Source: a virus
DNA length: 23,738 nt
Direction: 5' to 3' (one strand)
Virus record (IMG/VR): IMGVR_UViG_3300049825_000016
Location: 1 to 23,738 of that record
A model generated the notes under the pieces. The model worked only from the letters and a program-made list of their open reading frames with translations. It searched no databases and was not told the origin of the DNA. Below are positions 884-11,772 of the stretch, piece by piece. Numbering within the stretch: the first letter of the stretch is position 1; every line of letters starts with the position of its first letter. The position numbers were made by a program, and so were the translations under genes.

Positions 884-2766
884 TCCTTTGGGTCGATTTT
901 GAAACGAAAAGCGCCTGCGACCTAAAAACCGCAGGCGTTTACAACTACGCTCAGGACGCCAGCACCGAGGTGCTGTGTATGTCCTACGCTTTTGACGATG
1001 AACCTGTACAGACTTGGGTGCCTTTCTGTACAGATGATGATGGATGTGTACAGAAAAACCCGTTTCCTGTACAGGTCGCCAATTTCACCGGCGAGATCAG
1101 GGCGCATAACGCGGCCTTCGAGCGGTTGATCTTCTGGTACGTCCTCCAGATCGAGTTCAAGTTAGAGCAGTTCTACTGCACCGCCACGCAGGCGCGCGCC
1201 AACTGTGCGCCTGGCTCGCTTGAGGACGTGGGCCGGTTCTTTGGCGCGTCGATGCGGAAAGACCATCGCGGCGCGCATCTGGTGCGGCAATGCTGCATCC
1301 CGCCGTATAACACCACTTTGCTGCCGGAACTGTATGCCTATTGCGAGCAGGACGTTCGGGCGATGCGCGCCATAAGCACCGGACTGCGCCAGTTGACCGC
1401 CGACGAACTGCTCGACTATCACGTCAACGAGCGTATCAACGACCGTGGTGTGCTGGTCGATGTGCCGTTGGCCCGTGGGGCTGTGCAGTACGCCGCGCAA
1501 GAGGTCAAGGACATCCAACAGATCGTCGTCGAGGTGACGGGCGGCGCTGTGCCGACCGTGCGCTCGCCCAAGATGCGCGACTGGGTGTACGACCGGCTAG
1601 ACGAAGAAGGCCAGCGCCTGATGATGGTCGAGGGCAAGAAGTCCATCGACAAGACCGTGCGCGCCAACTTGCTCAACACCGACCTTGACTCGGATGTGCG
1701 CGAGGTCATCCAGTCAGCAGATGATCTCTGGGCGTCGTCGGTGGCGAAGTTTCAGCGGATGGCCGACCTAGCCGACGTTGAGGATCACCGCGTGCGCGGC
1801 GCGTTCGTCTTCGCTGGCGGCAGCGCCACCGGCAGGGCGTCGTCGTATGGTCTGCAAGTCCACAACTTCGGGCGCAAGTGCCACAAAGACCCCGAGGCTG
1901 TACGCGCGGCCATTGTCGCTGGTCAGTCTGTCGTCCCTCAGTTTGGCGTTCGCACTACTGACGTTCTCAAGACCATGCTGCGGCCCGCCATGCGCGGGCC
2001 TTTTACTGTGGCCGATTGGGCAGCCGTCGAGGCGCGGCTGACGCCGTGGCTATCCACCGAGGGCGACGAGGTGCTGGACGTGTTCCGCGCGGGCGGCGAC
2101 ATCTACGTCAATGAGGCGCAGAAGATGTTCAACGTGCGCGACGTAACGCCTGAGCAGCGCCAGATTGGGAAGGTCGCCATTCTCGCCTGCGGCTTCGGCG
2201 GCGGTCACAACGCCTTTGCGGCGATGGGCCGCACCTATAACGTCAAGATGTCCGAGGCCGAGGCGCGCCAGACAGTCGAGGCGTGGCGCAGAGCGAACCC
2301 TTGGGCTGTCAGGTACTGGTCAGACCTAGAGTGGGCCTACAACGCGGCGATGCGGAATCCCGGCGAACACATCAAAGTCGCCCGGGTGACGTACTGCTTC
2401 AATGGTCAGCACCTATGGTACGCGCTGCCTTCGGGGCGTATCCTCTGCTACCCGTTCGCCCGCATCGAGGAGGACGGCATCACTTACGCAAAGGCCGCGT
2501 GGAAGCCCGCCCAAGATGCAAAAGAATGGCCCCGCGCCCGACTCTGGAAGGGTCTGGCCTGCGAGAACATCACCCAAGCGGTCGCCAACGACCTGCTGCG
2601 CTACGCGCTGCGTCAGGTGCCAAACGTTGTTTTACACGTGCATGACGAAATTGTCGTCGAGGGCGCTTGCCCTGATCTGGAACGGATTATGTGTACCCCG
2701 CCCGCGTGGGCGGCGGATTTGCCGTTAAAGGCCGAGGTCAAAACAATGGAAAGATACGGAAAATGA
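880..2766 (+). CDS. Family A DNA polymerase with 3'-5' exonuclease domain
   Basis: This is the phage replicative polymerase, 628 aa from the ATG at 880. An in-frame GTG at 862 exists, but the ATG forms an ATGA overlap with the upstream stop and places the exonuclease motif close to the N-terminus as usual. Exonuclease motifs are DFETKS (residues 5-10), AHNAAFE (75-81) and YCEQD (about 154-158). Polymerase motif A is VADWAAVEARL (377-387), motif B runs RQIGKVAILACGFGGG (427-442), and motif C is HVHDEIVVE (586-594). There is no 5'-3' exonuclease domain, which is normal for short phage polymerases. The region between the first two exonuclease motifs (about residues 44-70) is coded by DNA carrying four TGTACAG sites. 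The gene overlaps the primase/helicase by ATGA. Confidence 0.97.
   Translation: MILWVDFETKSACDLKTAGVYNYAQDASTEVLCMSYAFDDEPVQTWVPFCTDDDGCVQKNPFPVQVANFTGEIRAHNAAFERLIFWYVLQIEFKLEQFYCTATQARANCAPGSLEDVGRFFGASMRKDHRGAHLVRQCCIPPYNTTLLPELYAYCEQDVRAMRAISTGLRQLTADELLDYHVNERINDRGVLVDVPLARGAVQYAAQEVKDIQQIVVEVTGGAVPTVRSPKMRDWVYDRLDEEGQRLMMVEGKKSIDKTVRANLLNTDLDSDVREVIQSADDLWASSVAKFQRMADLADVEDHRVRGAFVFAGGSATGRASSYGLQVHNFGRKCHKDPEAVRAAIVAGQSVVPQFGVRTTDVLKTMLRPAMRGPFTVADWAAVEARLTPWLSTEGDEVLDVFRAGGDIYVNEAQKMFNVRDVTPEQRQIGKVAILACGFGGGHNAFAAMGRTYNVKMSEAEARQTVEAWRRANPWAVRYWSDLEWAYNAAMRNPGEHIKVARVTYCFNGQHLWYALPSGRILCYPFARIEEDGITYAKAAWKPAQDAKEWPRARLWKGLACENITQAVANDLLRYALRQVPNVVLHVHDEIVVEGACPDLERIMCTPPAWAADLPLKAEVKTMERYGK
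1004..1074. repeat. Cluster of four TGTACAG sites inside the polymerase gene
   Basis: TGTACAG occurs at 1005-1011, 1027-1033, 1047-1053 and 1068-1074, so starts are 22, 20 and 21 bp apart. Three copies are the full 8-bp palindrome CTGTACAG. The copies fall in different codon phases (Val-Gln in some, Cys-Thr in another), so the repeat is not explained by a repeated peptide. Roughly two-turn spacing would put all sites on one face of the helix, as in operator or iteron arrays. The same heptamer overlaps the leftward promoter -10 at about 6988-6994. The function is inferred only. Confidence 0.5.
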
Positions 2767-4988
2767 TTGACTACCTATGCTCCCTTGCCGCCGAGGGCGA
2801 GACTTTTTTGATCGTCAAGCAAAAGCAAAAGGGCGAACGGTTTACCTACCCCGCGTTCCTGCCGTCGCGTTATGTCGCTGGCGGCGCTTGGTACGGCAAC
2901 ACCGGCTCGTACATCATCGACCGCTTCCGCGACGGTCATGTGTCCGCGTCGAGCGCCAACATCGAGCACGTGCTGGTCATGGTGCTGGACGACATAGGCA
3001 CCAAGAGCAAGACCCCGCCATTGCCCCCGACTTGGATCATGGAGACAAGCGAGGGTAACTACCAATGGGGCTACACGTTTAGCGATCAGCCCACAAAACA
3101 TGAATTTGCCGCCGCGATCATCGCCATCGCCGCTGCTGGTTACACAGATCCAGGCGCCATCAACCCCGTTCGCAACTTCCGCATCCCCGGCTCGCTGAAC
3201 CACAAAAACGGTTTTGCCTCGCGCTTGGTCGAGATGCACAAGGACCGCGAGTACACGCTGGCCGAGATCTGCGCCGCCCTCGAAGTAACGCCTGCCGAGG
3301 CCAACAGCGGCAGCGTGGTGGGCGTGACTGTAGACGCCGGGGCCGACGATGTGGTCGAGTGGCTGTCAGGCAGGGGCGAGGTGCTGGAGCGCGGGAATTC
3401 GTCTGGATGGTGGGGCGTCAAGTGCCCCAACAGCGCCGAACACAGCGACGACCAGATCGGCGCGCGTTACCTGCCCGCCACCCGCGCCTTCGCCTGCTTC
3501 CACGGCCATTGTCTCGACTGGGACAGCGTGGCGTTCTTGCGCTGGGTGGCCGACTCGGGCGGGCCGCAGCGCACGCACGGCTTCCGATCCGAACTGATGG
3601 CGACGATGATGCAGGTAGTGTCCGCGAAGCTAAACCCGTCCCCTGAATACCCCGACCGCGCCGCCGAGATCATCGCCTCGGTCGAGCAGCGCGAGCTAGG
3701 CCGCATGGAGAAGGCCGACTGGTGGGCCAAGTGGGCGTATGTGCAGGACGACGAGTCATTTTTCAGCATTGAAGACCGCCGTCTTATCTCCCGCGCGACC
3801 TTCAACGCCATTTACCGTCACATCTCCTGCGTCTCGATCCACGGCGCAAAGCCCCGCCGTGTCGAGGCGTCTATCTGCTATGACGAGAACCGCCAAGCCA
3901 ATGGAGCGCACAGCCTGACCGGCGTCACCTACGCTGCCGGATCATCCATGCTGGTCACCCGTGAGGGTCTGGTCTACGGCAACCGCTGGCGCGATCAGCG
4001 CCCGACGCCTATCGCTGGTGACGTTGGCCCTTGGTTGCGTCATGTTGAGCGCATGATCCCCGACGCCGACGAGCGCGCGCACTTCCTAAGCGTGTTGGCG
4101 CATAAAGTACAGTACCCAAGCATTAAGATCAATCATGCGATCCTGCTAGGTGGCAACCACGGCTCCGGCAAAGACACCCTGATGGCCCCGTTTTTCTGGG
4201 CAATCGGTGGTGCCACTAAGTCAAACTGTTCCCTAGTCAAGAATGACGAACTAACTTCTCAATGGGGTTACGCACTCGAGTGCGAAGTCATGGAAATAGC
4301 CGAATTGCGCCAGTCTCAGGCGCAGGACCGCCGCGCGCTTGAGAACACCCTTAAGCCCCTGATCGCCGCGCCCCCCGAGTTGCTGCCGGTCAATCGCAAG
4401 GGGCTGCACCCGTACTTGGCGCTCAATCGAATTCTGGTTGTTGCGTTCACGAACGAACGCGGGGCGATCTCGCTACCTAGTGAGGACCGCCGTTGGTTTG
4501 TCCTGTGGTGCGACGCCGACCGCCTCTCCGAGGCCGACGCCACGTCCCTTTGGACGTGGTACACGCGCCGAGACGGTTTTGCCATCGTTGCGCATTACTT
4601 GGCTACCCTTGACGTGTCGGCGTGGTGCCCGACTGCGCCGCCTCCGATGACAGAGGCTAAGATGATTTTGATTGACGCCGCCATGTCGCCCGCCGAGGCC
4701 GTGCTGGTGGCCACCATTAAGGGCCGCGTCGGTGACTTCCGCGACGGGGTCATCTGCGGGCCATTTCACGCGATCCTAGATCGAGTGCATTATCCCGCGC
4801 ACGTCAAGACACCCCCACAAGCCGCGTTGTTTCACGCGCTAAAAGAGGCTGGCTGGGTTGATATGGGGCGTCTACATTCGCGCGATCACAACACCAAAAA
4901 GCATATCTTCCGCGCGCCTGAGTTGGCGGGGATGCAGAAAAGCGACCTGCGCGCGATGGTCGAAAAAAAGCCCGCTGTCGCGGGCTAA
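2763..4988 (+). CDS. Phage primase/helicase (RepB-like primase plus DUF5906-type NTPase)
   Basis: This 741-aa protein primes and unwinds DNA for the polymerase encoded just upstream. The ATG at 2763 is chosen because it makes an ATGA overlap and follows GGAAA; a further ATG at 2691 lies deep inside the polymerase gene. The N-terminal third resembles RepB/prim-pol domains, with VLVMVLDDIG and FRIPGSLNHKNGF. A zinc-binding set follows (C221, H227, then C245-x-H-x-H-C250). The C-terminal half has a Walker A loop GNHGSGKDT (464-472) and an EDRRWFVLWCDAD segment typical of DUF5906/D5-like phage NTPases. Its last codons also encode the terminator hairpin of the opposing genes, and its stop TAA overlaps the stop of the 18-aa leftward ORF. 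Confidence 0.93.
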   Translation: MIDYLCSLAAEGETFLIVKQKQKGERFTYPAFLPSRYVAGGAWYGNTGSYIIDRFRDGHVSASSANIEHVLVMVLDDIGTKSKTPPLPPTWIMETSEGNYQWGYTFSDQPTKHEFAAAIIAIAAAGYTDPGAINPVRNFRIPGSLNHKNGFASRLVEMHKDREYTLAEICAALEVTPAEANSGSVVGVTVDAGADDVVEWLSGRGEVLERGNSSGWWGVKCPNSAEHSDDQIGARYLPATRAFACFHGHCLDWDSVAFLRWVADSGGPQRTHGFRSELMATMMQVVSAKLNPSPEYPDRAAEIIASVEQRELGRMEKADWWAKWAYVQDDESFFSIEDRRLISRATFNAIYRHISCVSIHGAKPRRVEASICYDENRQANGAHSLTGVTYAAGSSMLVTREGLVYGNRWRDQRPTPIAGDVGPWLRHVERMIPDADERAHFLSVLAHKVQYPSIKINHAILLGGNHGSGKDTLMAPFFWAIGGATKSNCSLVKNDELTSQWGYALECEVMEIAELRQSQAQDRRALENTLKPLIAAPPELLPVNRKGLHPYLALNRILVVAFTNERGAISLPSEDRRWFVLWCDADRLSEADATSLWTWYTRRDGFAIVAHYLATLDVSAWCPTAPPPMTEAKMILIDAAMSPAEAVLVATIKGRVGDFRDGVICGPFHAILDRVHYPAHVKTPPQAALFHALKEAGWVDMGRLHSRDHNTKKHIFRAPELAGMQKSDLRAMVEKKPAVAG
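4963..4986 (-). terminator. Rho-independent terminator of the leftward gene cluster
   Basis: On the minus strand, AGCCCGC (4986-4980), a 4-base loop and GCGGGCT (4975-4969) form a perfect 7-bp stem followed by a run of seven T. It ends leftward transcription and is embedded in the last codons of the convergent primase/helicase gene. Confidence 0.88.
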
Positions 4989-5041
4989 AGGTCAAGGAGA
5001 ATCGCCAGTATAGCGGCGATGATCGCGGCCAAAATCAGCAT
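4985..5041 (-). CDS. 18-aa hydrophobic micropeptide
   Basis: The frame encodes MLILAAIIAAILAILLDL, almost entirely one membrane-length hydrophobic helix with a single acidic residue near the end. GAGGAACC lies just ahead of the ATG and gives a plausible ribosome binding site. The start overlaps the stop of the 103-aa upstream gene, so coupled translation is likely. Its TAG stop sits at the foot of the terminator stem and overlaps the primase stop on the other strand. Very short hydrophobic ORFs can be toxin-like, lysis-related or regulators of membrane proteins; none can be assigned here. Arguments for a real gene are the Shine-Dalgarno, the overlap and the composition; the main argument against is its length. 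Confidence 0.45.
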   Translation of the reverse strand: MLILAAIIAAILAILLDL

Positions 5042-5346
5042 GGTTCCTCGCTCACGATAGGCTCGCGCGGGTCGTAGTGTGTCGTTGGCCGATCATTGAG
5101 CGGCGCCCAGCGTTTCATTTCGCTAGTACCGAAAATTTTGTGATTCATTGTCTCAAACTGGCAAACATAATCATAAGTGCTGGCGGCGCTCTCAGGGTAC
5201 TGGCGCGTCATGTTCAAATGCGGCTTGTCGAGCCTAAACTTGCGGCCCTTACCCTTAACTTTAATGTTGGAGCATAGCGTGCGCACGTTTTCGGCGTTCT
5301 CCGGGCGCAGAATGAAATCGGTGCCATCAATATGTAGTGTGATCAT
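5035..5346 (-). CDS. Hypothetical protein, 103 aa
   Basis: The start is ATG at 5346, preceded by GGAGATAAGCAA, a good ribosome binding site; the frame stays open upstream to a GTG at 5427 but with no better signal. The product begins MITLHIDGTDFILRPENAEN, is polar and has a basic patch (KVKGKGRKFRLDK), with no signal peptide or membrane segment. I do not recognise a family. The ATG overlaps the stop of the 28-aa ORF upstream and the stop overlaps the start of the 18-aa peptide downstream, so all three would be made from one leftward mRNA. The basic patch might suit nucleic-acid contact, which is a guess. Confidence 0.75.
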   Translation of the reverse strand: MITLHIDGTDFILRPENAENVRTLCSNIKVKGKGRKFRLDKPHLNMTRQYPESAASTYDYVCQFETMNHKIFGTSEMKRWAPLNDRPTTHYDPREPIVSEEPC

Positions 5347-5429
5347 TTGCTTATCTCCATAGTCAGTGTGACGATAGCGCGGGTTTGATAGACCGGTGTC
5401 GAGCCGCGCACCGTGCGGCCGGCGCACAT
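5343..5429 (-). CDS. Small ORF, 28 aa
   Basis: This short frame starts at ATG 5429 with a strong Shine-Dalgarno (AGGA, five bases before the ATG) and stops with TGA sharing bases with the start of the 103-aa gene (ATGA). The peptide begins MCAGRTVRGSTPVYQTR and ends TLTMEISK, basic overall, with no recognised domain. The good start signal and the coupling favour a real product or a leader that couples translation of the next gene. The short length leaves doubt. Confidence 0.45.
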   Translation of the reverse strand: MCAGRTVRGSTPVYQTRAIVTLTMEISK

Positions 5430-5464
5430 GTTTTTCCTGTCGCTGATTTTTACTTGGTAAGTGT

Positions 5465-5554
5465 TCAAGGGGTCATCACAAAAATAAAGTAATAAAAAAG
5501 AGGTGCGCCGATGATGGCTGCGGCCAGGATGGCTTGCAGTAAAAATTTAAGCAC
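5465..5554 (-). CDS. 29-aa hydrophobic small protein (GTG start)
   Basis: The frame starts at GTG 5554, overlapping the stop of the 123-aa gene, with AAGGGAT about eight bases ahead as ribosome binding site. It encodes VLKFLLQAILAAAIIGAP followed by LFYYFIFVMTP, so nearly the whole product is hydrophobic, with one lysine at the N-terminus. A single membrane segment is likely. This is the second tiny membrane-type peptide in this cluster. Phage proteins of this kind include lysis and superinfection factors, but nothing identifies the role here. Confidence 0.45.
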   Translation of the reverse strand: MLKFLLQAILAAAIIGAPLFYYFIFVMTP

Positions 5555-5918
5555 GGTGATATCCCTTGCGAAGATGAGCCACCGCCGCCGCGTCCTGCGC
5601 TGCACTCAGGTAGAGCGCCTCGGACCCCACCCAGCCGTTGACGCATGACACGGCCGTGAGCCACCAGCCGCCGCGGGTGCGGGTGAGCGTGGCGCGGGTC
5701 AACTCGCGGCTGTACTTATAAGCGTTGGGCACGCGGCCCCCGCTCACACAATGCACCACAGCGCCCGCGCGCTGCGCGGGGGTCAAACCCAGCGCGGCCA
5801 TTTGCGCTTCCGCGCGGTCAGCCACCATGTTGAGGCCAAGCGCGGTGTAGGTGTGCGCTTTTGCGTTGTCATTGACGTCCGCCAGCGCGGCGGCGCACTT
5901 TTCAATTTTAATCTTCAT
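5547..5918 (-). CDS. Hypothetical protein, 123 aa
   Basis: The product starts MKIKIEKCAAALADVND. The ATG at 5918 is preceded by AGAGG at six bases. It is Ala-rich in its first half (ALGLTPAQRAGAVVHCVSGG) and has a Trp-containing beta-like stretch RGGWWLTAVSCVNGWVG near residues 82-98. No family is recognised and no signal peptide or membrane segment is evident. It is the first gene after the GP88-like gene's terminator, so it needs read-through or its own promoter; only a poor promoter match was seen upstream. It is followed by the overlapping 29-aa ORF. Confidence 0.75.
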   Translation of the reverse strand: MKIKIEKCAAALADVNDNAKAHTYTALGLNMVADRAEAQMAALGLTPAQRAGAVVHCVSGGRVPNAYKYSRELTRATLTRTRGGWWLTAVSCVNGWVGSEALYLSAAQDAAAVAHLRKGYHRA

Positions 5919-5974
5919 TTTTTGCCTCTGTAGTGACGATCATTCAAATTTTTCGCAGCGTTCGTTTGATCGCC

Positions 5975-5998
5975 AAAAAAGCCCACTCTGAGCGGGCT
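5975..5998 (-). terminator. Rho-independent terminator after the GP88-like gene
   Basis: On the minus strand AGCCCGC (5998-5992), loop TCAGA and GTGGGCT (5986-5980) form a 7-bp stem with one G-U pair, followed by six T. It lies just past the GP88-like stop codon and separates the two leftward gene groups. Confidence 0.8.
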
Positions 5999-6006
5999 GG
6001 ATCCGG

Positions 6007-6735
6007 TCAGTAATGCACGCCGACGCGCTGTACAAACCCGCTATCGTCATGCCGAGCCTTACCCTTAGCGTATAGCGCAACAATAACGCCGCTCGGCTCA
6101 ATATGCCGCACGTCGGTGTTGTCCCCATCAATAACGGGCCAGCCGCGAAATGTCGTTGGAATGTCTTCGCGTCGGTGAAAGACAACAGCCACCCGCGCGC
6201 CAGGCTGGCTCACACCCTTTAGCGTGATCTTTTCTGGCGTGACGCCGGAAAACGAGTACGTTAGATCATAGTTTTTAATCTTCGCCGTGTTTCGTTTTGG
6301 ATGCTTTGTATAATCATAAAATTGAACGTCCGGGAACATCTCGAAAATTGTCTGGCCGGTGAACAATAGGATGTTTTCGTACAAAATATCAGACGTGCCA
6401 TTAAGCCGGACCAGCGGAATCAAACCCAGTTTAACCGCGCGTCGCTGCAGCGTCCAGATATCGGCGGCTAGTGCGCGCATAAATGAGTCGATGTCAGCGT
6501 GAAAAAAATCCGTCTTAGCCTGTCGGGCACGCTGTACTTTATGCTGCGCGCCCCGGCCGGCTGTCGATAAACAAGGTTTAAGACATCCAGCAACGGCCGA
6601 GTATGCGCAGACGCGGATTGACGGCACCAGATAAACAATGCCGGTCAAAAAGCCAATTTTTTCGCCCTTGATTGTTTTGGCGGACGTTTGCCCTAGGATG
6701 GGGCGATACGTTTGTGTTTTGTATGGATTGTTCAT
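6007..6735 (-). CDS. GP88-like phage protein (conserved cysteine family of unknown function)
   Basis: This 242-aa protein starts at ATG 6735, preceded by AAAGGC; an upstream in-frame extension overlaps the previous gene and is not used. It matches my memory of a phage family often labelled GP88: conserved GEKIGFLTGIVYL (residues 24-36), cysteines at 43, 51 and 55 followed by LSTAGRGA (56-63), RLNGTSD (110-116), FYDYTK (139-144), a VIDGDNTDVR segment (201-210) and a glycine-rich C-terminus. The regular strand-like motifs after a cysteine cluster recall barrel-type enzymes, and a metal or Fe-S site is possible, but the function is unknown. It is the second gene of the leftward unit and is followed directly by a terminator. 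Confidence 0.8.
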   Translation of the reverse strand: MNNPYKTQTYRPILGQTSAKTIKGEKIGFLTGIVYLVPSIRVCAYSAVAGCLKPCLSTAGRGAQHKVQRARQAKTDFFHADIDSFMRALAADIWTLQRRAVKLGLIPLVRLNGTSDILYENILLFTGQTIFEMFPDVQFYDYTKHPKRNTAKIKNYDLTYSFSGVTPEKITLKGVSQPGARVAVVFHRREDIPTTFRGWPVIDGDNTDVRHIEPSGVIVALYAKGKARHDDSGFVQRVGVHY

Positions 6736-6745
6736 TTTTTGCCTT

Positions 6746-6958
6746 TTAGCGCGTAACAATAATGGCCATCGGCGAGCCCGAGTACCGCAACTGGACGCTA
6801 TAGCGCCCAAACCCGTCCCTGCGGACGTTATATCGCTTGCGGCCCATGTTGCCGCGCGCGTTGCGGCACGATCGCAGGTAGTGCGCGATCCATGTGCGCG
6901 ATTCGGCGGACGCAAATTGGGGCTCGTCGGCGAAGTAAAACAATCCGGCGGTTTTCAT
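6746..6958 (-). CDS. Small basic protein, 70 aa
   Basis: This is the first gene of the leftward unit, starting about 23 bases after the predicted transcript start. The product begins MKTAGLFYFADEPQFASAES and is Arg-rich from the middle onward (RSCRNARG, GRKRYNVRRDGFGRY). The strand-like ending YSVQLRYSGSPMAIIV suggests a small alpha/beta fold. The Shine-Dalgarno is weak (GAAAGA). It lies 10 bases upstream of the GP88-like start, so they form an operon. No family is recognised. Confidence 0.7.
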   Translation of the reverse strand: MKTAGLFYFADEPQFASAESRTWIAHYLRSCRNARGNMGRKRYNVRRDGFGRYSVQLRYSGSPMAIIVTR

Positions 6959-6987: not shown

Positions 6988-7016
6988 ACTGTACATGATT
7001 GTTTTACAGATGTCAA
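6988..7016 (-). promoter_or_regulatory. Leftward sigma70-type promoter
   Basis: Read on the minus strand, a perfect -35 TTGACA (7016-7011) is followed by a 17-base spacer and -10 TACAGT (6993-6988; four of six consensus bases). Transcription would start near 6981 and reach the 70-aa gene after a short leader. The -10 overlaps TGTACAG, the heptamer repeated four times in the polymerase gene, so a regulator binding that site could block this promoter (inference). Confidence 0.65.
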
Positions 7017-7091
7017 CGATTATTTTTGTGGGTCATGTGTGGGTCGTGTGTGGGCGCGGTGTGGGCATCGGTTTTTGATGGTCTACGCCAC

Positions 7092-7223
7092 GTGTGGGTC
7101 ATTGTGGTCATGTGTTTTTAAGTTTATGTTGTTGAATTGTGTATATAGGAGATATGAGCATCGGCGCAGCGTACGCTGCGCGTAGCCGCAGACTTGGAAA
7201 AGCATGACCACAATGACCCACAC
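7092..7223. repeat. 21-bp perfect inverted repeat flanking the AT-rich centre
   Basis: The arm at 7092-7112 (reads GTGTGGGTCATTGTGGTCAT then G) is the exact reverse complement of 7203-7223. The arms are 90 bp apart and enclose the AT-rich tract and the 18-bp palindrome. The same 21-mer as the right arm recurs at 7339-7359 and 7384-7404. Confidence 0.85.
7164..7181. repeat. 18-bp perfect palindrome
   Basis: GCGCAGCGTACGCTGCGC is its own reverse complement and sits between the arms of the 21-bp inverted repeat. It could be a dimer-protein site or extrude as a cruciform. No T-run follows and there is no loop, so it is not a typical terminator. Confidence 0.8.
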
Positions 7224-7325
7224 GCTAACTTGTTGATTTAATAGGGTTTTTTGGCATTTAGCCCGACCCACACGTGACCCACGCAAATGACCCACACTTT
7301 CGCGCCAAGCGACAAAACCATTTAT

Positions 7326-7404
7326 CGAGTTGCGTGGGCATGACCACAATGACCCACACAATCGGCAACGCGAGTTGCGTGGGCATGACCACAATGACCC
7401 ACAC
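7326..7404. repeat. Two identical 34-bp direct repeats, 45-bp period
   Basis: Positions 7326-7359 and 7371-7404 are identical over 34 bp, each beginning CGAGTTGCGTGGGCATGACC and ending in GACCCACAC, with an 11-bp spacer. Shorter related units starting GCGTGGGC recur at 7444 and 7488 (44 bp apart), so the right arm looks like a decaying tandem array. Confidence 0.85.
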
Positions 7405-7591
7405 CGCATGCTGGCGGGCTGCGCGCCTGGCGGCATATTGGCCGCGTGGGCATGGCACACGGCCGGATGCTGGCGGCAAAGCGAGCCGCGTGGGCGTGGC
7501 ACACATGGCACACGGTTTTCAGAATTTGAAGGGGGGGCAGGGCCGACACAAATCGTCCGCGGCTACGGAGCGTCCGCAGACAAAATTTTTT

Positions 7592-7600
7592 TGGTATAGT
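7592..7600 (+). promoter_or_regulatory. Extended -10 promoter for the late genes
   Basis: TGGTATAGT at 7592-7600 matches TGn plus TATAAT with one mismatch, and an AT-rich tract precedes it. No -35 box is seen at the correct spacing, as is usual for extended -10 promoters. Transcription would start about seven bases downstream, at the A of the small terminase ATG (7607). Confidence 0.55.
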
Positions 7601-7606
7601 TCTGCC

Positions 7607-8053
7607 ATGTTTCAAAGTCTTCCTTACGAACCCCGCCGGATACAGGCAACTGAGGCGCGTCTTGAGCGGATATACGCCGCAGCCAAGCGTGGTCTGAAGG
7701 GCGAATCGCTGGCAATATCAGCAGGTATGCTTCCCGCTGAGTTCAATCAGATTGCTCAACTTGACCCGCTGGTTAACTTGGCCGCGCAAAAAGGCCGCGC
7801 CGACGCCGAGCAAGAACTGTCCGAGGTGCTGCACACGGCGGCGCTGTCAGGCGACGCTAAGATGGCGCTAGAGATACTCAAGCATCAGCATGGGTGGGTC
7901 GCCAAGCAACAGATCGAAGTGGATCAGCGCATCAGCATTACGGCTGCGTTGGCGATGGCACAACAAAGGGTAACGGATGCAAACGACGATCTATTCAGCG
8001 GCGGACGAACAGGCTTTAATGGCGAGGTTGTGGACGCCCGCGTTATCGAATGA
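7607..8053 (+). CDS. terS: Terminase small subunit (putative)
   Basis: This 148-aa, helical, charged protein begins MFQSLPYEPRRIQATEARLE. The segment AAKRGLKGESLAISAGMLPAEFNQI (residues about 24-48) looks like a helix-turn-helix, as in small terminase DNA-recognition domains, and ALSGDAKMALEILKHQHGW is typical of phage small terminases. It lies directly upstream of, and overlaps by 77 bp, the large terminase. The frame is open upstream to 7274, but that part encodes only repeat-derived peptide. There is no Shine-Dalgarno before 7607; the promoter placement suggests a leaderless mRNA. Binding to the repeats just upstream is a natural hypothesis. The call rests on context and fold-like features rather than a strong signature. 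Confidence 0.8.
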   Translation: MFQSLPYEPRRIQATEARLERIYAAAKRGLKGESLAISAGMLPAEFNQIAQLDPLVNLAAQKGRADAEQELSEVLHTAALSGDAKMALEILKHQHGWVAKQQIEVDQRISITAALAMAQQRVTDANDDLFSGGRTGFNGEVVDARVIE

Positions 8054-9500
8054 TCCTCTAGCGTTCGTGATGTTCGTGTTCCCGTGGGGTCAAGCGGGCA
8101 CACCACTAGAACACTTCAGCGGCCCGCGTAAATGGCAACGCGAAGTCCTCGCCGCCCTGCGAGAACACATCAAGCAAAACGGCGGCAAAGTTGATTTTGA
8201 CACCCTTAGATTAGCGGTGGCGTCGGGGCGGGGTATCGGCAAGTCGGCCCTAGTCAGTTGGCTGACTATATGGATGCTGTCCACGCGGATCGGCTCGACG
8301 ACCATCATCTCGGCCAACTCAGAGTCTCAGTTGCGGTCGGTCACATGGGCCGAGATCACCAAATGGCTGGCGATGTCGCTCAACAGCCACTGGTTCGAGG
8401 TCAGCGCCACCCGACTGATGCCCGCCAAGTGGCTGACTGAACTGGTCGAGCGTGACCTAAAGAAAGGCACGCGGTACTGGGGCGTCGAGGGGCGACTGTG
8501 GTCGGCTGAGAATCCTGACGCCTACGCGGGCGTTCACAACTACGACGGCGTGATGGTGGTGTTCGATGAAGCCAGCGGTATTGACGACGCTATCTGGTCG
8601 GTGACGGGCGGCTTCTTTACTGAGAACACGCCGAACAGGTTCTGGCTGGCGTTTAGTAACCCACGGCGCAACACGGGGTACTTCTACGAAGCCTTTAACA
8701 GCAAGCGGGACTTCTGGCTAGGCAAACAAGTAGACGCGCGCACGGTTGAGGGTACGGACAAGCAGGTCTATGAACAGATCATCGCTGAGTACGGGTCGGA
8801 CTCGTACCAGGCGCACGTTGAGGTGTACGGGTCATTCCCTAACGCCAGCGACGACCAGTTCATTGGGGCTAGCCTGGTGGACGAAGCGATGGCCAGGGAA
8901 AAGTATAAAGATGCCTCGGCGCCAATCATCGTCGGCGTCGATCCGGCCCGCTTTGGCGCTGACTCGACGGTGATCGCCATCAGGCAAGGACGCGACATCG
9001 TGACGATCAAGCGGTACAAGGGCGACGATACGATGACGGTGGTCGGTCATGTGATCGAGGTCATTGAGGAATACAAGCCTGCGCTAGTGGTCATTGACGA
9101 AGGCGGGCTAGGCGCTGGCATCGTGGACAGGCTAAAGGAGCAGCGGTACAAGATCAAGGGTATCAACTTCGGCAACAAGTCGAAAAACCCGATCATGTAC
9201 GGCAATATGCGAGCGCAGATGTGGGGTGAAATGCGGGAGTGGCTTAAATCGGCCAGCATACCCAAGGACAAGTTCTTGAAAACTGACCTTATTTCGCCTA
9301 TGATGAAACCGGACTCACGGGGTACAATCTTTCTTGAAAGCAAGAAAGAGATGAAATCTCGCGGACTTGCCTCGCCAGACGCGGCAGATGCGCTGGCCGT
9401 GACGTTTGCTTTCCCTGTGGCTCATCGTGAGTACAATGAGCCTACTCGCCGCTCATCATACCAAAACGGCGGCGTCTTAACTTCTTGGATGGGTTCATAA
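7977..9500 (+). CDS. terL: Terminase large subunit (packaging ATPase/nuclease)
   Basis: This 507-aa protein powers DNA packaging and cuts the concatemer. Walker A is SGRGIGKS (83-90) and Walker B VMVVFDEA (192-199). The RNase H-like nuclease has acidic residues in VGVDPARFGADS (D322), VVIDEGGLGAG (D374) and SPDAADALAV (D468/D471). The start at 7977 overlaps the small subunit gene and is preceded by AAAGGG. Length and both domains are complete. It would dock on the P22-type portal encoded just downstream. Confidence 0.97.
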   Translation: MQTTIYSAADEQALMARLWTPALSNDPLAFVMFVFPWGQAGTPLEHFSGPRKWQREVLAALREHIKQNGGKVDFDTLRLAVASGRGIGKSALVSWLTIWMLSTRIGSTTIISANSESQLRSVTWAEITKWLAMSLNSHWFEVSATRLMPAKWLTELVERDLKKGTRYWGVEGRLWSAENPDAYAGVHNYDGVMVVFDEASGIDDAIWSVTGGFFTENTPNRFWLAFSNPRRNTGYFYEAFNSKRDFWLGKQVDARTVEGTDKQVYEQIIAEYGSDSYQAHVEVYGSFPNASDDQFIGASLVDEAMAREKYKDASAPIIVGVDPARFGADSTVIAIRQGRDIVTIKRYKGDDTMTVVGHVIEVIEEYKPALVVIDEGGLGAGIVDRLKEQRYKIKGINFGNKSKNPIMYGNMRAQMWGEMREWLKSASIPKDKFLKTDLISPMMKPDSRGTIFLESKKEMKSRGLASPDAADALAVTFAFPVAHREYNEPTRRSSYQNGGVLTSWMGS

Positions 9501-9570: not shown

Positions 9571-11772
9571 ATGGCATACAACGGCGATGTGAAGTCCGCT
9601 GGCGTAGTGGCCAGCGGCGACACCAAGAAGGACACTCTTGATGTGATGCGTAGCCGTTTCACTATGGCGATCTCAGCCTATGGTGAATCCCGCGAAGACG
9701 AATTGGACGACCTGCGGTTCCTCGCAGCCAGCCCAGACAACCAATGGCAATGGCCTGCGGACGTTCTGGCGACTCGGGGGTCGATCCAAGGGCAGACGAT
9801 CAACGCACGACCGTGCCTGACCATCAACAAACTGCCACAACACGTTAAGCAGGTCACCAACGACCAGCGCCAGAACCGGCCAGCAGGCAAAGTCATCCCC
9901 GCCGACTCGGAAGGCGACGTAGAGGTTGCGGAAATCTTCGAGGGCATCGTCAGGCACATCGAATACATCAGCGATGCTGACGTAGCCTACGACACCGCCT
10001 GCGACAACCAAGTGACCTACGGTGAGGGGTACATTCGACTGGCTACGGAGTACTGCCGTGAGGACAGTTTTGACCAAGACATCAGGATTTGTCGGGTTCG
10101 GAACTCGTTTTCGGTCTACATGGATCCAACGATTCAAGACCCATGCGGAGCAGACGCCGAATGGTGTTTTATCACCGAAGACTTGACAAAAGACGAATAC
10201 CATCGCCAGTTTCCAGATGCTTTGCCGATTTCTACGCTTATGGCGCGGGGTATTGGAGACCAATCGCTGTCGCAATGGATCAGCGAAGACACAATCCGCA
10301 TCGCGGAGTACTTTTACGTCGAACACAAGGCGCAGACGCTGAACCTGTACCACGGCAACGTGTCGGCGTTGGAAAATACTCCAGAAGACAAGCAAATGAA
10401 GGCAATGGGCATGGTTCCCATTAAAACCCGGCAGGCCGACACCAAGGTAATCAAGTGGTGCAAGACCAACGGCGCTGAGTTTATGGAAGAAAAAGAGTGG
10501 GCGGGCAAGTGGATTCCGGTCGTTCGGGTAGTTGGCAACGAATTTGAAGTTGATGGTCGTTTGTATGTGAGCGGTTTGGTGCGAAACGCCAAGGACGCGC
10601 AACGGATGTACAACTATTGGGTCAGCCAAGAAGCAGAAATGCTCGCTTTGGCCCCAAAAGCACCTTTCATTGGCTACGGTGGTCAATTTGAGGGGTACGA
10701 AAACCAATGGAAAACCGCGAACACCACGAACTGGCCGTATCTGGAGGTAAATCCAGACGTTACGGACGGTCAGGGCGGTGTTATGCCGCTTCCGCAACGT
10801 GCCCAGCCGCCTATGGCTTCGTCTGGGTTGTTGCAGGCCAAGGCAGGCGCTTCCGACGACATCAAGTCAACCACAGGCCAGTACGATTCAAGCCTCGGCG
10901 CCACAAGCAACGAGCGTTCGGGCAAGGCTATTCTGGCGCGGGAGAAACAAGGCGATACGGGGACGTACCACTTTGTTGACAACTTGGCGCGTGCCATTCG
11001 GTACGTCACCCGTCAAGTAGTCGATCTGATCCCCAAAATCTATGATACCGAGCGTGTCGCTCGCATCATTGGTGTGGACGGTGAGACTAGCATGGCTAAG
11101 ATCAACCCGAACCAGCCAGAGCCGGTCAAAAAGATCGTTAACCAAGACGGTATCGTGATCGAAAAAATCTACAACCCAAGCGTGGGTATGTACGATGTGT
11201 GCGTCACGACCGGCCCGTCATACGCTACCAAGCGCCAAGAGTCGCTGGATGCCATGAGCCAGTTGTTGCAGGGCAACCCGCAACTGTGGGCGGTGGCAGG
11301 CGACCTGTTTATCAAGAACATGGACTGGCCTGGTGCTCAAGAAATGTCCAAGCGGTTTGCCAAAACGATTGACCCAAAACTGTTGGACGACAGCGAAGAA
11401 AATCCAGCACTTGCAGCAGCGCAGCAACAGATCGAGGCGATGGGCAAGGAAATGGAGCAGATGCACAATGCCTTGATGAGCGTGCAGGATCACATTGAAT
11501 CCAAGACTATCAAGGTCAAGGAATTTGAGGCGCAGGTCAAGGCGTTTGACGCCGAAACCAAGCGCCTAACGGCTGTGCAGGCGTCCATGTCGCCAGAGCA
11601 GATTCAAGACATTGTGATGGGCACCGTTCACGGCATGATTACCAGCGGCGACTTGATCGGAGAGATGCCGGGTCAGGATGTTGATATGGGTGCTGAGATG
11701 CCGCAGGAAGGCATGGAACAGCAACCACAAGAAATGCAACCCCAGCCTGAGATGCAAGGAGCGCCACAATGA
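9571..11772 (+). CDS. P22-like portal protein
   Basis: This 733-aa protein forms the dodecameric ring at the capsid vertex through which DNA enters and leaves; P22 gp1 is of similar size (about 725 aa). The N-terminus has the characteristic SRFTMAISAYGESREDELDD and LRFLAASPDNQWQWP (about residues 28-62) and INKLPQHVKQVTNDQRQNRP. It contains the family's SGKAILAREKQGDTGTYHFV (about 449-468) and a helical C-terminal region followed by a Gln/Met/Glu-rich tail from about residue 690, matching the P22 barrel plus disordered end. The stop overlaps the next start (ATGA). No truncation is seen. Confidence 0.96.
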   Translation: MAYNGDVKSAGVVASGDTKKDTLDVMRSRFTMAISAYGESREDELDDLRFLAASPDNQWQWPADVLATRGSIQGQTINARPCLTINKLPQHVKQVTNDQRQNRPAGKVIPADSEGDVEVAEIFEGIVRHIEYISDADVAYDTACDNQVTYGEGYIRLATEYCREDSFDQDIRICRVRNSFSVYMDPTIQDPCGADAEWCFITEDLTKDEYHRQFPDALPISTLMARGIGDQSLSQWISEDTIRIAEYFYVEHKAQTLNLYHGNVSALENTPEDKQMKAMGMVPIKTRQADTKVIKWCKTNGAEFMEEKEWAGKWIPVVRVVGNEFEVDGRLYVSGLVRNAKDAQRMYNYWVSQEAEMLALAPKAPFIGYGGQFEGYENQWKTANTTNWPYLEVNPDVTDGQGGVMPLPQRAQPPMASSGLLQAKAGASDDIKSTTGQYDSSLGATSNERSGKAILAREKQGDTGTYHFVDNLARAIRYVTRQVVDLIPKIYDTERVARIIGVDGETSMAKINPNQPEPVKKIVNQDGIVIEKIYNPSVGMYDVCVTTGPSYATKRQESLDAMSQLLQGNPQLWAVAGDLFIKNMDWPGAQEMSKRFAKTIDPKLLDDSEENPALAAAQQQIEAMGKEMEQMHNALMSVQDHIESKTIKVKEFEAQVKAFDAETKRLTAVQASMSPEQIQDIVMGTVHGMITSGDLIGEMPGQDVDMGAEMPQEGMEQQPQEMQPQPEMQGAPQ

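Follow-up and report, generated by a model that had tools for sequence, protein, structure and literature searches.

What purpose is served by a cluster of mirrored short repeats beside the small terminase gene of a tailed phage, and which protein would read it? The window analysed here is a 23,738-base IMG/VR record, a fragment of a tailed phage whose genes run from left to right in the order PAPS reductase, family A DNA polymerase, primase-helicase, a leftward gene block, the repeat array, terS, terL and portal (Table 1). The array is separated from the primase-helicase gene by around 2 kb and adjoins terS. Within the leftward block, the minus-strand gene at 6007-6915 encodes a protein of the Pfam 'Gene product 88' family (E=2e-36), which, as far as seen here, shares with the Gp88/Odn of ICP1 the name alone. 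An earlier note on this DNA had read the array as a bidirectional origin or, equally, as a cos/pac or terminase-binding site. The layout of the array, its conservation, the diversity of its repeat word and the statistical co-change of this word with the primase-helicase wing come directly out of the sequence analysis, and replication of the phage DNA most likely starts at the mirrored repeats.

Nine copies of TGACCCACA with at most one mismatch are found in 7000-7540, three on the minus strand, all left of the core, and six on the plus strand, all right of it; the "about ten" oppositely directed motifs described earlier are a fair count if degenerate copies are included. The window contains 10 copies of the heptamer GACCCAC, nine of them within 400 bp; when the window was Markov-shuffled 60 times, the best-scoring 7-mer had 3 to 6 copies in 400 bp. 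With one mismatch allowed, GACCCACRC is found 18 times in the whole window against 12.7 expected, a total that is not unusual. The unusual features of the array are the clustering and orientation of the motifs, not their window-wide number. The 21-bp perfect inverted repeat, which extends to 33 bp at 88%, encloses an AT-rich tract and an 18-bp palindrome, all present as first described. Each arm beside the core is made of two head-to-tail 9-mers, TGACCACAA and TGACCCACA, and the left arm has two further perfect pairing partners, 7339-7359 and 7384-7404; the right iteron stretch holds two identical 34-bp repeats (7326-7359 and 7371-7404). Single-stranded folding of the array segment is strong (z -6.7), for which the inverted repeat alone accounts.

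Table 1. Coordinates of the array and of neighbouring genes in the window.
Feature	Position	Strand	Remarks
Family A DNA polymerase	862-2766
Primase-helicase	2691-4988	+	RepB_primase-like N-terminus, DUF5906/D5-type SF3 helicase, C-terminal winged helix; proposed iteron reader
C-terminal domain, predicted winged helix	4596-4985	+	AlphaFold model, pLDDT 82; last 130 residues
Wing codons GRLHSRDHNTKKH	4866-4904	+	Residues 726-738; co-changing residues H729, R731, N734
Leftward gene block	5035-6958
C3, small protein gene	5035-5427	-	Downstream of primase in many relatives
Left iterons	7027-7101	-	TGACCCACA type at 7027, 7038, 7093; degenerate GTGTGGGC copies in between
Left arm of 21-bp inverted repeat	7092-7112	-	Tandem 9-mers TGACCACAA/TGACCCACA; such core-side tandem pairs recur in relatives
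Core between arms	7113-7202		Left half (7113-7160) 73% AT; candidate unwinding region
18-bp perfect palindrome GCGCAGCGTACGCTGCGC	7164-7181		Inside core
Right arm of 21-bp inverted repeat	7203-7223	+
Right iterons	7214-7403	+	7214, 7264, 7275, 7288, 7350, 7395
Degenerate right-hand copies	7441-7515	+	GTGGGCATGGCACAC type
G-rich block and T-run	7530-7595		Just upstream of terS
terS	7607-8053
terL	7977-9500
P22-type portal	9571-11772

A TerL search retrieved 80 relatives and further loci were fetched by primase; the comparison set comprises 117 distinct loci with both primase and TerL. An array of the same design sits upstream of terS in most of the TerL-fetched relatives, and the mirrored layout was recovered by a strict automatic call in 94 of the 117 loci. 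The earlier note had proposed looking for the motif upstream of terS in related phages: the layout is indeed kept there, but the 9-mer itself changes by lineage. While position and layout remain constant, the word reads TGACCCACA, TTGTCCACA, TGACCCAAA, TAGCCAACA or TTGCCTACA, and in further lineages TGACTCACA, TGACACACA, CTGCCAACA, TTGCCCACA and others; an exact 17-mer search of viral contigs returned seven stretches with one match each. Left of the core, sites in relatives number 445 on the minus against 99 on the plus strand, and right of it 620 plus against 174 minus, counts that are partly built in because the automatic call demands a minus site on the left and a plus site on the right. 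The words are mostly spaced by 9 to 11 bp, in pairs, with minus pairs on the left and plus pairs on the right; additional pairs beyond the mirrored set take either orientation. The cores of the relatives have a median length of 91 bp and a mean AT content of 64% compared with 51% in the flanks, and are richer in AT than their own flanks in 88 of the 94 layout-positive loci. In seven complete relatives the density of the word core is 1.8-12.5 per kb in the array vs 0.1-0.43 elsewhere.

Other elements were seen around these arrays. In the cores of many relatives, the motif AGCGA(C/T)T, commonly with TTAAA after it, precedes the right arm by about 20-25 bp. Many relatives (L018, L019, L022, L024, L026, L029, L047, L050, L066, L091 and others) also carry, between iterons and terS, a second array of GTTAGTGnnCACTAAC-type palindromes with around 10 to 16 half sites, perhaps the operators of another regulator; no such array was seen in the window. 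L001 and L002, which are more distantly related, have different repeats at the same place; in L001, whose primase is 49% identical, a quite different repeat, TGTTTACATAAACA, at 10400-10600 accompanies a quite different wing, GMCFAPELSTKRH. Three relatives, L415, L416 (Rhodoferax MAG) and L414 (beta proteobacterium MAG), come from bins carrying a Betaproteobacteria label, which hints at the hosts of these phages; misbinning is possible, because further matches fall in actinobacterium- and Mucilaginibacter-labelled bins.

With a word that changes under a constant layout, some protein must change along with it. Aligning primase C-termini by word revealed a pattern in the segment GR-L-x1-S-x2-n-n-x3-T-KKH. 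Using a tree built from TerL and the primase minus its last 110 residues, we counted branches carrying a change both at a word position and in a protein column, over 745 columns of primase-helicase, TerL and TerS (around 6700 tests). Word position 8 co-changed with wing residue 725 (P=9e-9) and with R731 (P=1e-8), and word position 4 with residue 729 (P=9e-8); these P values are approximate, with branches treated as independent. The three wing columns are the strongest of the 745 and remain below 0.001 after Bonferroni correction. Among the top 40 columns there are none from TerL and one from TerS, whose best P values (about 4e-4 and 3e-5, respectively) compare with 1e-8 for the primase wing, and PolA columns do not rank high. 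The correlation of word and protein distances over 25-residue blocks is weak and best at the wing (0.21).

Four rules linking wing and word were fixed before the arrays of the primase-fetched loci were examined, and were tested on 72 new distinct loci, some of them closely related to earlier ones. The first, Arg731 (x2) if and only if C is at word position 8, held in 71 of 72 loci (shuffle mean 63.6), and all four new cases without Arg731 (G, S, A, T) lack C8. Lys729 (x1) together with Asp/Glu734 (x3) predicted TTG and C6 (TTG..C) in 26 of 28 loci (shuffle mean 10.2), Asn/Thr at x3 predicted A3 or TGGC in 13 of 14 (4.8), and a small x1 with Gln/Ala at x3 predicted A or G at position 6 in 6 of 8 (1.3). 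Among 2000 shuffles none matched the scores of the first three rules and one matched that of the fourth. The automatic word finder, whose first version mis-called some loci and caught a second repeat, CACTAAC, was refined between rule-setting and test, protein residues being unused. Two examples illustrate the code: L174 and L184 share 94.7% identity up to the wing, where ASSDYP vs KSRDYD goes with TGACCCAAA vs TTGTCCACA, and the Rhodoferax MAG locus L416 conforms to the rules with wing KSRRHD and word GTCCACA. Repeat spelling therefore tracks three primase-helicase residues across more than 100 related phages, which points to this protein as the probable reader of the array.

The code is not strict, because one clade keeps its wing while words vary. 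Among members with wing GRLASREYQTKKH, whose C-terminal domains are nearly identical, some have TAGCCAACA arrays and others TGACCCACA-type TGACC(C/T)ACA arrays; L154 carries both kinds, and L061 also belongs to this loose clade. Either specificity may be loose there or other residues may count. Elsewhere, L098 was called CTACCCAAA despite Arg731, and in its sister L096 the arrays combine CTACCCAAA and copies of the CTACCCACA and GCACCCACA types.

Primase and D5/SF3 helicase domains were both assigned to the product of the 2691-4988 gene from Pfam-level and fold matches, with DUF5906 at E=2e-9 and RepB_primase just under the cut-off. By sequence, its best and only PDB match is NrS-1 (E=1e-10). 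A full-length model of moderate quality (pTM 0.41) matched the fold of the NrS-1 PrimPol helicase best, and also matched SaPI primase-helicases (7ola and 7pds) and poxvirus/ASFV-type primase-helicases, including poxvirus D5. The AlphaFold model of the C-terminal domain shows the element order of a winged helix, in which x1, x2 and x3 fall in the hairpin loop between strands 88-93 and 102-106 of the domain model; a PDB fold search with this domain alone gave no match at E<=0.001.

From these patterns we consider it very probable that the array (about 7027-7515) serves as the replication origin and that the C-terminal winged helix binds its 9-bp iterons, with H729, R731 and N734 setting the word that is read. 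As in iteron origins, tandem short repeats lie by an AT-rich region and the repeat is matched to the C-terminal domain, with one loose clade. The winged-helix domain would contact the iterons directly, and the primase-helicase may assemble on both arms, loading helicase rings in opposite directions. The AT-rich core would then melt and two forks depart in opposite directions, primed by the N-terminal primase domain of the same protein and elongated by the phage family A polymerase, encoded just upstream of the primase-helicase. This scheme is modelled on SaPI Rep and Cch2, whose C-terminal domains bind iterons (PMC7581432). GC skew, a check suggested in the earlier note, gave in seven complete relatives no consistent cumulative minimum, which lay within 3 kb of the array in three of the seven.

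An operator or silencer, acting over the leftward block and the rightward late operon and read by a phage transcription factor such as C3, would suit the place of the array between the leftward genes and the late genes. In the 71 loci with a C3 gene, the columns of this very variable protein, which has no Pfam or PHROG match, co-change with the word at nearly the strength seen for the wing. Wing, C3 and array adjoin and can be exchanged as a block, and C3 co-change where the gene is present is as expected if the three travel together; L174 and L184 differ in C3 as well as in wing and word. However, C3 was undetected in 46 of 117 loci. Where two loci share the wing class but have distant C3 proteins, their words are no more than one mismatch apart in 185 of 229 pairs; where C3 is close and the wings differ, this is so in 16 of 43 pairs. 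The C3 proteins of L355 and L384 are 96% identical, yet both wings and words differ. The words follow the wing rather than C3. The region also holds one weak promoter-like site and no more, and we regard the operator as improbable.

Packaging, the array being a cos/pac or small-terminase binding site, would agree with its location directly upstream of terS and terL. Against it, TerL columns show no co-change with the word and TerS columns a weak one, and the contig ends of relatives, an indirect measure, begin at scattered positions with no single-nucleotide pile-up. A conserved G-rich block (consensus GGGGTAGGGCCGA) followed by a T-run lies nearer terS, between it and the array, in 103 of the 117 loci and does not vary with the word; this candidate packaging site or promoter suits cos/pac better than the array does. 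We therefore judge packaging by the array very unlikely. Of the two roles that the earlier note had put on an equal footing, the origin gains from the conserved layout, the lineage words and the wing co-change, while cos/pac loses ground with the terminase ranks and the scattered contig ends.

Host DnaA boxes, at which the host initiator would open the origin, are scarcely credible: TTGTCCACA is one base off the E. coli box, TTATCCACA, and the 9-bp head-to-tail spacing is alike, but TGACCCAAA, TAGCCAACA and TGACACACA diverge from it under a constant layout, host DnaA specificity is to our knowledge nearly universal, and the co-change with the phage wing would be left without explanation. Rather than TTATNCACA boxes, the window and most lineages have words that deviate from the DnaA box. 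A phage-encoded DnaA-type reader is also unlikely, since a DnaA domain IV match was confined to MW202483 (L001) and absent from the window, OR003940 and the IMG/VR relatives searched.

For an aquatic phage family that is widespread but mostly uncultured, a candidate origin thus comes with a candidate initiator, and many mutually independent origins of one design are suggested. With more than 100 initiator-origin pairs and around 20 words, this natural data set makes directly testable how an initiator shifts its DNA specificity yet keeps its origin. As a tentative scenario, which we hold to be possible rather than probable, a wing code of three residues diversified origin specificities within one phage family, wing and array being swapped together by recombination, perhaps under pressure to block the use of the initiator by co-infecting relatives or satellites. 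No report of initiator-origin covariation in this phage family was found in the open-access literature searched.

Among known systems, the P4 alpha protein is a fused primase-helicase that binds origin iterons; whereas P4 has ori and crr as separate sites, a single array was found here. NrS-1, the closest PDB match of the window protein in sequence and fold, has a primase-polymerase that recognises TTTGGTTA and GTGG-type template sequences (PMC8718748), with two copies of an 8-nt site in its genome (PMC7102993). It reads a single-stranded template through its primase/HBD region, in contrast to the long arrays of the present phages and to their co-changing residues, which lie in a C-terminal winged helix. 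The earlier statement that no known phage element has this layout was too strong, as SaPI origins are also iterons: SaPI Rep/PriRep and SCCmec Cch2 are SF3-type helicases whose C-terminal domain reads short iterons, as predicted here, and may act as two hexamers (PMC7581432). Unlike theirs, the present array belongs to a free-standing phage, is located beside terS some 2 kb past the helicase gene, and is mirrored about a core of around 90 bp, with 9-mers whose word varies with the wing across many lineages. Initiator-origin covariation is itself already known. In the PLE satellites of Vibrio cholerae, the DNA-binding domain of RepA covaries with the iterons of the origin, and the two function only when matched (PMC8263062); there are two groups only, and the RepA_N initiator has neither primase nor helicase. 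Geminivirus iterons differ between close relatives and interact with the cognate Rep (PMC12548392), a replication protein of single-stranded DNA plant viruses from an unrelated family. The novel features of the present arrays are the mirrored arrangement of their 9-mers, the many words found among lineages, and the link to wing residues from which these words can be predicted.
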